Shown here piece by piece: positions 47,025 through 55,047 of a DNA stretch of 64,000 bases; the stretch's first letter is position 1; every line of letters begins with the position of its first letter. A model generated the notes under the pieces. The model ran no database searches, was not told where the DNA came from, and worked only from the letters and a program-made list of their open reading frames with translations. Position numbers and translations under genes: made by a program. Origin of the DNA: Cryptosporangium phraense (GTDB lineage: Bacteria > Actinomycetota > Actinomycetes > Mycobacteriales > Cryptosporangiaceae); contig NZ_VIRS01000012.1 of assembly GCF_006912135.1 (NCBI RefSeq), positions 124,001-188,000 on the forward strand, written 5' to 3'.

Positions 47025-48592
47025 AGCGGGAGGTTCGGGTGTTTGCGGGCCGGTCCACTCTTCCGTTTCGTGCGCAGCATCCGCAGCGCCTTCGCGACTT
47101 CCATCCGGGTCTCGGACGGAGCGATCACCGCGTCCACGTAACCCCGCTCCGCCGCCTCGTACGGTGTGCACATCTCCTCGCGATACGCCGCGACCAGCGC
47201 CTCCCGCACCTCCTCGGAGTCGCCCGCCTCCTGCAACTGCCGCCGGAACAGCACGCTCACCGCGGCCTCCCCGCCCATCACCGCGATCTCCGCGGTCGGC
47301 CAGGCCAGGTTCGCGTCGACCCGGTAGTGCTTGCACCCCATCGACGCGTACCCGCCGCCGTAGGCCTTCCGCACGATCACGGTCACCATCGGCACGGTCG
47401 CCGTCGCGTACGCGAACGACAGCTTCACCCCGCGCCGGATGATCCCGCCCCGCTCCTGCGCCAGCCCCGGGAAATACCCCGGCACGTCGACCAGCGTCAC
47501 GATCGGGACGTTGAACGCGTCGCAGAACTGGATGAACCGCGCGCCCTTCTCCGACGCGTCGATGTCCAGCGCCCCGGACAGGTGCAGCGGCTGGTTGGCC
47601 ACGATCCCCACCGTGCGGCCCTCGAGCCGGGCGAACCCGCAGAGCAGGTTCGGCGCGAACGCGGCCTGCAGCTCGAGGAACTCGCCGTCGTCGACGAGGT
47701 GCCCGATCACCGACCGCATGTCGTACAGCCGGTTCGGCTCGTCCGGGATCACGTCGTTCAGGGCCAGGTCGTCGGCCACGGCCCGGATCTCGACCGGGTA
47801 CTCCGGCGGCTCGTCCAGATTGTTCGACGGCAGGTACGACAGCAGCGTCTGCACCCAGTCGAGCGCGTCCTGCTCGTCCGCGGCGACGTAGTGGACGTTG
47901 CCCGCGGCCGCGTTCGCGGCCGGCCCGCCGAGCTCCTCGAACGTCACCGACTCCCCGGTCACCGCCTTCACGACGTCCGGCCCGGTGACGAACTGGTGCG
48001 ACGTCCCGGCCACCATCACGACGACGTCGGTCGCGGCCGGGCCGTAGACCGCTCCCCCGGCGCACGGCCCGAGGATCAGCGAGATCTGCGGCACGACGCC
48101 GGACGCCTGCGCGATGTGGTACCCGATCTCGCCGTACGCGGCCAGCGACGCCACGCCCTCCTGGATCCGCGCACCGCCGGAGTCGTTGAGGCCGACGATC
48201 GGGCAGCCGACCTCGATCGCCCGCTGCATCACCTTGACGATCTTCTGCCCGACGCGTTCGCCGACGCTGCCGCCGAACACCGTGAAGTCCTGCGCGTAGA
48301 CGCCGACCGGACGTCCGTCGACCAGCCCGTACCCGGTGACGATGCCGTCGCCGTACGCCTCGCGGGCGTCGTCGCCGTAGTTGCCTGCGCCGTGCCGGGC
48401 CAGCGCGTCGACCTCCACGAACGTGCCCGGGTCGAGGAACGCGTCGATGCGTTCCCGGGCCGTCAGCTTGCCCTTGGCGTGCTGCTTGTCGACGGCCGCG
48501 AGCGTGCCCTGGCGGGACACCTCCCGGCGGCGGGCCAGCTCGGCGATCTTGGCCGCCGTGGTCCGGACGCCCCGAACCTGAGTAGTCGTCAT
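47021..48592 (-). CDS. Acyl-CoA carboxylase carboxyltransferase subunit, AccD4-like
   Basis: 523 residues from the ATG at 48592, which overlaps the PKS stop in ATGA. It is a biotin-dependent carboxyltransferase: KGKLTARERIDAFLDPGTF, the acyl-CoA oxyanion region NDSGGARIQEG, and in the C-terminal half DVPGYFPGLAQERGGIIRRG and KAYGGGYASMG. In mycobacteria AccD4, beside pks13 and fadD32, carboxylates a long acyl-CoA to give the Pks13 extender. Same order and the same size support that role. The biotin-carrying subunit is not in the window. Confidence 0.9.
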   Translation of the reverse strand: MTTTQVRGVRTTAAKIAELARRREVSRQGTLAAVDKQHAKGKLTARERIDAFLDPGTFVEVDALARHGAGNYGDDAREAYGDGIVTGYGLVDGRPVGVYAQDFTVFGGSVGERVGQKIVKVMQRAIEVGCPIVGLNDSGGARIQEGVASLAAYGEIGYHIAQASGVVPQISLILGPCAGGAVYGPAATDVVVMVAGTSHQFVTGPDVVKAVTGESVTFEELGGPAANAAAGNVHYVAADEQDALDWVQTLLSYLPSNNLDEPPEYPVEIRAVADDLALNDVIPDEPNRLYDMRSVIGHLVDDGEFLELQAAFAPNLLCGFARLEGRTVGIVANQPLHLSGALDIDASEKGARFIQFCDAFNVPIVTLVDVPGYFPGLAQERGGIIRRGVKLSFAYATATVPMVTVIVRKAYGGGYASMGCKHYRVDANLAWPTAEIAVMGGEAAVSVLFRRQLQEAGDSEEVREALVAAYREEMCTPYEAAERGYVDAVIAPSETRMEVAKALRMLRTKRKSGPARKHPNLPL

Positions 48593-54500: not shown

Positions 54501-55047
54501 CGTCCAGGAACCCGCCCCAGCGGTTCAGCGAGGCCAGCACCGCCGAGTCCGCGGCCGAGCCGTCGGTGAACTGCTCCCACCGGTCGGCCGGCACCTCCCG
54601 GACGGCGCTGCGCCCCGACTCCAGAAGCTGCCAGAACTCCGCCGGCCCCGACGCCCCGGGGAACCGGCACCCGAGCCCCACGACGGCAACAAGCCCGTCG
54701 GCCGAGGCAGCTCCGGACGCTGGCGAGGCGTCCGAACTGCCGGCCGACTCGCCGGTGGCTCCACGAACCGGCGAGTCGACAGCTTCACGGGCCGACGGGC
54801 TCGCTCCCTTACTGACGGACGCGGTCAGGTCATCGTTCACGAGCTCGGCGAGTTTCCCGGCCAGCTGCGCGATCGTCGGGAACTCCCAGGGGAGCGTGGG
54901 CGGCAGCGACCGTCCTATTTCGCGCTCCAGCTCACCGACCAGCGCCACCGCGTCCCGTGACGAGAGTCCGATGTCGACGAACGCGAGCGAGGGGTCGTCG
55001 GCGCCGAGGCGTCGGACGAGCCACTCCCGTAACTCAGCCTCGGACAT
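48589..55047 (-). CDS. Pks13-like type I polyketide synthase with added DH and KR domains
   Basis: 2152 residues. Domains in order: N-terminal ACP ([10 protein letters not shown]); KS about 118-540 with Cys about 285 (DTACSSSL), VEAHGTGT and KTNLGH; AT with Ser about 722 (GHSMGE); DH with His about 1024 in [13 protein letters not shown] and the partner [12 protein letters not shown] with [14 protein letters not shown] and Tyr about 1605; ACP2 with Ser about 1754 (LGLDSLMAV); an ACP-like linker; TE with Ser about 1963 ([11 protein letters not shown]). The TE end ([35 protein letters not shown]) closely follows Pks13, which lacks DH and KR. It probably condenses a FAAL-loaded acyl chain with a carboxylated acyl unit. 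Confidence 0.9.
51664..51717. repeat. Two tandem 27-bp repeats inside the PKS gene
   Basis: Two exact copies of a 27-bp unit starting CGGTCGCTCGCCCCGG are in frame and encode a repeated PPAGGRGER segment in a DH-domain linker. The insertion looks tolerated and recent. Confidence 0.85.

Follow-up and report, generated by a model that had tools for sequence, protein, structure and literature searches.

A Pks13-lineage synthase with intact dehydratase and ketoreductase domains in Cryptosporangium phraense, and its relatives in other actinomycetes

The described systems closest to the synthase treated here are Pks13, PpsA, and MAS (mycocerosic acid synthase). Pks13 is the condensase with which mycobacteria and corynebacteria make mycolic acid, which it transfers to trehalose. 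PpsA, the phthiocerol synthase, is a polyketide synthase (PKS) with a start loaded by a fatty acyl-AMP ligase (FAAL); it has a ketoreductase (KR), has no thioesterase (TE), and sits in a multi-PKS cluster. MAS is iterative, uses methylmalonyl, has an enoylreductase, and carries neither an N-terminal acyl carrier protein (ACP) nor a TE. The synthase in question is a type I PKS encoded in the window, by which is meant the whole 64,000-nucleotide stretch analysed here (Cryptosporangium phraense RefSeq assembly GCF_006912135.1, contig NZ_VIRS01000012.1, positions 124,001 to 188,000; genome size 8.46 Mb). Pks13 and the window synthase shared the order ACP–ketosynthase (KS)–acyltransferase (AT)–ACP–psiACP–TE, a Pks13-type TE, the N-terminal ACP motif, the AT motif GAxH, flanking genes for a FAAL and for an AccD of the AccD4 clade, and a common clade for KS and for TE, but they differed between AT and the second ACP (ACP2): Pks13 has a half-dehydratase (DH*), while the window synthase had an intact dehydratase (DH) plus KR. 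Pks13 systems also have CmrA acting in trans and FadD32, while the window genome had no CmrA above cut-off, its genus had no PF04602, and its FAAL lay below the FadD32 cut-off (see below). The product of the locus is probably a Claisen condensase of mycolate type that belongs to the Pks13 lineage and modifies its beta-keto group itself; on the best reading of its sequence, with product, extender, and acceptor all predicted, it would make alpha-alkyl beta-hydroxy or 2-enoic acids.

Pks13 yields a keto intermediate, and its reduction falls to a separate enzyme, CmrA (PMC9900942, PMC2568869), as the initial annotation of this locus had stated. Three further papers describe (i) Pks13 linkers that may include cryptic domains (PMC9210659), (ii) residues 1074-1172 of Pks13, modelled in a 2024 cryo-electron microscopy study as a pseudo-dehydratase DH* that resembles the N-terminal half of a DH and has no catalytic residues (PMC11649247), and (iii) mycolic acids as exclusive to Corynebacteriales, with the origin of the mycomembrane called a mystery (PMC6194230).

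The initial annotation had placed a DH and a KR between AT and ACP2 in the open reading frame (ORF) at 48589..55047, and Pfam matches, residues, and structure-sequence alignments all bore this out. The synthase and its domains were as follows.

48589..55047, minus strand: type I PKS of 2152 aa, ACP1–KS–AT–DH–psiKR–KR–ACP2–psiACP–TE (ORF and domain calls)
54823..55047, minus strand: N-terminal ACP with Ser30 (GLSSRDAV motif as in canonical Pks13)
53428..54696, minus strand: ketosynthase with Cys285 (Pfam, KS tree)
52180..53133, minus strand: acyltransferase with Ser722 (GAAH where others read YASH/HAFH)
51223..52068, minus strand: dehydratase with both catalytic motifs intact, His1024 and Asp1195 (Pfam, alignment)
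50683..51180, minus strand: region between DH and KR, taken as the KR structural half (position; partly covered by KR didomain matches)
50140..50670, minus strand: catalytic half of the ketoreductase, intact, with an Asp read as B-type marker (Pfam, alignment with MAS KR)
49678..49866, minus strand: ACP2 with Ser1754 (Pfam)
49387..49626, minus strand: Ser-less carrier-like stretch, counterpart of Pks13 psiACP/ACP3 (alignment and profile match)
48604..49365, minus strand: Pks13-type thioesterase with Ser1963, Asp1990, and His2130 (Pks13 TE match, TE tree)

The Pfam matches, all above curated cut-offs, were PP-binding (two stretches), ketoacyl-synt (residues 120-363 and 371-486), Acyl_transf_1 (639-956), PKS_DH_N (994-1081), PS-DH (1135-1275), KR (1460-1636), and Thioesterase (1897-2020). 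The residues that we take to be catalytic were all in place: S30 in ACP1, C285/H420/H460 in KS, S722 in AT, H1024 and D1195 in DH, K1568/S1592/Y1605/N1609 in KR, S1754 in ACP2, and S1963/D1990/H2130 in TE. The alignment of the window DH with the solved PpsC DH spanned both motifs (5e-29), the window KR matched MAS KR at 2.8e-60, and the best solved match of the window TE was Pks13 TE (1.9e-54). As in Pks13, there were two Ser-bearing ACPs and, ahead of the TE, a Ser-less one.

The search for relatives was carried out in 397 genomes of the order with a KR–ACP–psiACP–TE query (alignment A1). Some match at 1e-60 was found in 158 genomes, and at least 44 places in 37 genomes covered nearly the whole KR-to-TE query in frames of 1649-3058 aa; two candidate places were scored per genome in the searches of order and class, and place counts are hence lower bounds. 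The 37 carriers comprised all four genomes of the window's genus, two of genus g3 (family f2), and 31 of family f14, and one TGA lay inside the matched stretch in four of the 44 places, being in the window the synthase's own stop codon. Class-wide, 17 of 394 genomes had a match at 1e-150; 15 of the 17 (families f31 and f32) lay outside the order, and three of these 15 matches began near query position 50. In a scan of named genomes, each of the 30 loci obtained was distant, with identities of 25-39% in the best segments. Fifty variant loci with DH and KR, the window included, were fetched and annotated (35 rows from the order and 15 from outside it), and L036, which did not have the domain order, was left out after the architecture check. 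Since other genomes repeated this domain order and, for the most part, its neighbours, the arrangement is neither chance nor an assembly fusion, and an artefactual fusion was ruled out on this ground. The initial annotation knew of no description of such an arrangement: none of DH-KR relatives of Pks13 was found in the open-licence literature (subscription papers and natural product databases lay outside the search, and the cluster and its product may already have been described there), while the counts given above show that the window synthase is not unique.

Active sites were counted over the 35 variant rows of the order, the 15 loci from outside it not being included. KR Lys, Ser, and Asn were kept in all 35 rows, KR Tyr in 33, and the Asp that we read as the B-type marker in 34; DH catalytic His was kept in 33 rows and Asp in 30. 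Both DH motifs were intact in the window and in the three same-genus relatives fetched (3/3). A disrupted DH or KR in the window synthase was ruled out by alignment, and the intact sites assumed by the initial annotation held there as well as in 33/35 (KR) and 30/35 (DH) variant rows. The departures on the DH side were diverse: L027 and L028 had lost the DH His and much of the domain with KR intact, L087 had a short DH, L081 and L082 had Glu in place of DH Asp, and L129-L131 (family f31) showed a KR match plus a decayed DH, with no FAAL within the fetched 20 kb. L129-L131 possibly represent an intermediate towards the Pks13 state. Because KR stayed intact where DH was lost in separate lineages, KR is the constant element and DH the one that decays repeatedly.

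Two further kinds of deviation were seen. KR catalytic Tyr was replaced by His in L090 and L091, two related loci from different genomes. L029 and L093-L098 (family f14; n = 7) were Pks13-like synthases with neither KR nor DH, and six of these seven genomes also carried a DH-KR form; the KR-less synthases had the AT motif VAGH, no adjoining AccD, and no CmrA over cut-off in the genome, and their keto group has no known reducer. In the first KS tree they fell among the DH-KR forms (95/92 with L085 and L088), and their position was open in the second tree.

The tree comparison was applied to KS, TE, and AccD. Domain matches covering <80% of the profile were dropped beforehand; four near-duplicate outgroup KSs were left out of the first KS tree, nine near-identical family rows were left out of the second KS, widened KS, and TE trees, and eight far KS outgroups were dropped from the second KS tree and one more from the widened one. 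The TE tree held all 59 family rows together against 12 other TEs (99/99), and the widened KS tree, to which a PpsA-like row and 14 other KSs had been added, did so as well (59/59; 99/78); the two earlier KS trees likewise grouped the variants with canonical Pks13. The placement of KS and TE in the Pks13 clade, on which the likeness to Pks13 noted by the initial annotation turned, was thus supported. A quick AccD tree without bootstrap contained a clade of 44 (SH-aLRT, the Shimodaira–Hasegawa-like approximate likelihood-ratio test, 98) made up of all 29 variant-linked AccDs, all 13 canonical AccD4 rows (11 loci, two of them entered twice), and two other paralogues; six other carboxylases lay next to this clade but apart from it, and the AccDs of the window, L026, L027, and L121 entered the tree as copies in L167-L170. 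The AT motif GAxH was present in 28 of 35 variants, 10 of the 15 loci outside the order, and 11/11 canonical Pks13; it was missing from all 34 other ATs, where motifs such as VASH, VAPH, HAFH, and YASH stood in its place. Membership of the variant synthase in the Pks13 lineage is therefore supported, KS, TE, and linked AccD each grouping with Pks13 or AccD4.

At E <= 1e-60 a single KS was seen in the window genome. A broader KS search covering 10 genomes gave the KS of L144 as the closest outsider to the family, and this KS was sister of the family in the widened KS tree (99/89); we call the locus PpsA-like only because of gene sizes and gene order in its cluster. PpsA begins with ACP–KS–AT as the variant does. 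The window synthase did not belong with PpsA: it has a TE, and its KS fell within the clade of the Pks13 family, next to the single PpsA-like row, whose AT motif (VAPH) is unlike GAxH. The sister position suggests a common FAAL-loaded ancestor for phthiocerol and mycolate synthases. MAS provided the closest solved AT and KR to the window synthase, and the MAS AT reads VASH.

The AT-to-ACP2 gap in canonical Pks13 measured 160-190 residues (domain calls, 11 loci). With the post-AT part removed, the linker core (11 rows of about 90 columns), which corresponds to residues 1081-1171 of Pks13 (9f48) and so to the stretch modelled as DH*, aligned with the variant DH profile at an hhalign score of 57.3 (probability 96; E-value 4.5e-9 with one template). 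The controls scored far lower: 23.7 for the best of 200 column shuffles, 17.2 for the reversed profile, 17.8 for the C-terminal half of DH, and at most 16.4 for other domains. The matched part of DH was the N-terminal hotdog, with the segment of the catalytic His skipped, and the clearest common stretch was LPDGRHVW, found in canonical rows and in variant L079. Taken singly, the 50 variants scored 10.5 to 45.2 against the linker, and the highest score among four outside DHs was 22.2; the relation shows up with profiles or through certain relatives, not from the window alone. No Pfam DH model matched any of three canonical linkers (3/3), and a profile search of solved structures with the linker returned three Pks13 sequences plus one weak P450 (0.15) and no DH. 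New here are the sequence homology of DH* to its DH-KR relatives and the direction of change; the structural claim is that of PMC11649247. Because the half-dehydratase relic sits at the same place, canonical Pks13 has probably lost DH and KR; the initial annotation had taken no position on gain or loss.

The distribution of the reducing enzyme followed the same division. CmrA (mycolate reductase, NF040690) passed its cut-off in 78 of the 397 genomes of the order, all of family f8, and these were exactly the 78 f8 genomes matching the KR-to-TE search, f8 being the family from which the 11 canonical Pks13 loci studied came (in some of the 78 the listed match was another KR-bearing PKS). In the 37 carriers, the window genome included, no CmrA exceeded the curated cut-off when the best six candidates of each genome were scored; weaker matches to short-chain dehydrogenases/reductases in the listed carriers lay at about 1e-51 to 1e-62, while no such match at 1e-50 was seen in G005 or G032. 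Cis and trans reduction were mutually exclusive in this genome sample. As to the acceptor, PF04602 (the arabinosyltransferase family EmbABC) was found in 5/5 canonical genomes and in 12 of 28 carriers tested, these 12 all of f14. It was absent from the other 16, so that arabinogalactan cannot be the general acceptor. The window's genus (0 of 4 genomes) and g3 (0 of 2) did not have it; classical mycolyl-arabinogalactan was rejected for the window's genus on this basis.

The neighbours of the synthase gene in the window were as follows.

55034..56749, minus strand: FAAL of 571 aa (14-bp overlap with the PKS start; alternative ATG start at 56719 possible)
47021..48592, minus strand: AccD-type acyl-CoA carboxylase subunit, AccD4 clade (4-bp overlap with the PKS stop)
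46059..47024, minus strand: mycoloyltransferase-like esterase, PF00756 (GTG start at 47024; 4-bp overlap with AccD)
44648..46180, plus strand: major facilitator superfamily (MFS) transporter, convergent, candidate exporter (homologue beside 36/50 variant loci)
43190..44458, minus strand: PucR-type regulator (homologues adjoin a number of related loci)

With overlaps of 14, 4, and 4 bp, FAAL, PKS, AccD, and esterase look translationally coupled. Among the 50 variant loci, FAAL adjoined 44, esterase 41, the MFS transporter 36, and AccD 29 (fetched stretches up to about 20 kb long; BLAST score >150 bits, for the esterase >90). The N-terminus of the window esterase (TTRRAFLAG) was twin-arginine-like as judged by eye, and the protein is probably secreted. 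Its best solved match was PS1, a corynebacterial mycoloyltransferase (6.3e-51), followed by Cmt1 and Ag85; its Ser and His motifs were kept in 55/55 aligned esterases from variant, KR-less, and canonical loci, and PF00756 plus catalytic Ser and His make it a predicted mycoloyltransferase of the Ag85/PS1 kind. It is alike to PS1, Cmt1, and Ag85, but it occurs in a genome without CmrA over cut-off. Directly upstream of FAAL lay a gene for a TIR_2/NB-ARC/TPR protein (STAND-type; 57331-59649, minus strand), a homologue of which (72-78%) adjoined the locus in 3/3 same-genus genomes fetched, and next to it were genes for a luciferase-like monooxygenase (59730-60728, minus strand) and a MarR regulator (60762-61271, minus strand).

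The following route would fit the locus. By analogy with FadD32 and Pks13, FAAL would activate a fatty acid and load it onto the N-terminal ACP, and AccD, with a biotin subunit encoded elsewhere, would carboxylate a second fatty acyl-CoA. AT, with its GAxH pocket, would load this bulky extender onto ACP2, a long-chain extender being proposed because of the GAxH motif and the AccD4 clade. KS would join both chains, presumably in a single condensation, to an alpha-alkyl beta-ketoacyl-ACP2, which KR would reduce in cis to the hydroxy acid, probably 3R by the rule on KR types; DH could then remove water to give an alpha-alkyl 2-enoyl chain, whereas in relatives whose DH is dead the route would end at the hydroxy acid, the mycolic motif. 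The Pks13-type TE may free the chain or pass it to an acceptor such as a sugar, and an exporter, perhaps the MFS protein, together with the PS1/Ag85-like esterase may deliver it to a surface acceptor. In evolution, canonical Pks13 would have come from a DH-KR form, with DH* in its AT–ACP2 linker as the relic and CmrA reducing in trans.

A number of results weigh against this reading. The window synthase reached 1293.5 of the 2100 bits that NF040607 (Pks13 equivalog) demands, and variant L026 also fell short (1320.2), while canonical L031 (2785.6) and L034 (2624.1) passed. The FadD32/AccD4 neighbourhood named by the initial annotation held for AccD by clade only, the FAAL having scored 471.4 of the 975 bits of the FadD32 cut-off and fitting PRK05850 better than FadD32. 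AccD was not adjoining 21 of the 50 variant loci, nor any of the seven KR-less synthases. The family clade in the widened KS tree was not starred, and in pairwise comparison the window KS stood nearer to the PpsA-like KS (62%, 554.7 bits) than to the Pks13 found in the genome of that KS (55%, 477.5 bits). GAxH gave way to VAAH, AAAH, or TSGH in the remaining seven of 35 variants and was absent from 7/7 KR-less synthases. The nearest solved KR was that of MAS and the nearest solved DH that of PpsC, and the AT matched MAS (the nearest solved AT), PpsC, and PpsA ahead of Pks13; MAS using methylmalonyl, a small extender is possible. A PpsA/MAS-type synthase with a Pks13-type TE would then take methylmalonyl-CoA or malonyl-CoA, and its product would be an ordinary 2-enoic or 3-hydroxy fatty acid, either alpha-methylated or unbranched, destined for a natural product such as a lipopeptide or glycolipid. 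The low FAAL score, the PpsA-like KS as closest outsider, and an AccD pairwise nearer other carboxylases (58-60%) than canonical AccD4 (49-52%) agree with this, but the window AccD falls in the AccD4 clade by tree, GAxH separates 28/35 variants and 11/11 canonical Pks13 from all 34 other ATs, and a mycoloyltransferase homologue stands beside 41/50 variant loci, so that we regard a small extender as unlikely. A classical mycolyl-arabinogalactan is also unlikely, PF04602 being absent from the window's genus.

There are two other alternatives. The DH may be silent in cis, with KR replacing CmrA and the product a beta-hydroxy acid, that is, a true mycolic acid. Decay of DH with KR intact in L027/L028 and L129-L131 is in keeping with this, as is the lower same-genus identity of DH (56-59%) versus KS, AT, KR, and TE (74-83%), though ACP1 and the psiACP stretch were as low; but both DH motifs were intact in the window and its three same-genus relatives, and His and Asp were kept together in 30/35 variants, which argues for selection for activity and leaves a silent DH rather doubtful. 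In the second, DH and KR may have been inserted into a Pks13-type ancestor, canonical Pks13 being the older form. The KS data do not reject such a gain: a tree holding the variants together apart from canonical Pks13 was 2.5 log units better than the free tree (approximately unbiased test, AU, p 0.55), so tree shape does not prove canonical Pks13 to be nested in the DH-KR forms, and a tree proof of DH/KR loss was not obtained. The window DH, moreover, does not have LPDGRHVW and alone scored 16.4 against the canonical linker, which is no match. Gain is nonetheless very improbable in our judgement: canonical Pks13 holds, at the same place, a half dehydratase without the catalytic His segment (PMC11649247), and a relic is easier to derive by loss. 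The preferred reading thus remains a Pks13-lineage condensase that would reduce, and in the window probably dehydrate, its own product, with canonical Pks13 derived by loss.

A broader picture can be offered tentatively, at somewhat less than even confidence. Many actinobacteria outside the mycolic acid group may carry a full mycolate-type condensation and transfer system with a synthase that reduces and dehydrates in cis; this could be an older form making alpha-branched enoic or hydroxy lipids, of which mycobacterial Pks13 would be a stripped descendant with DH* as its scar and CmrA as a later replacement, and mycolic acids would have grown from a wider, undescribed family of surface lipids. 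A widespread DH-KR family, in many cases accompanied by an AccD of the AccD4 clade and by a homologue of mycoloyltransferases, gives the question of mycomembrane origin a testable ancestor. Such an ancestor would explain both the dead half dehydratase in Pks13 (described in PMC11649247) and the need for CmrA, and with it undiscovered alpha-branched lipids would be expected in actinomycetes not regarded as mycolic acid producers.

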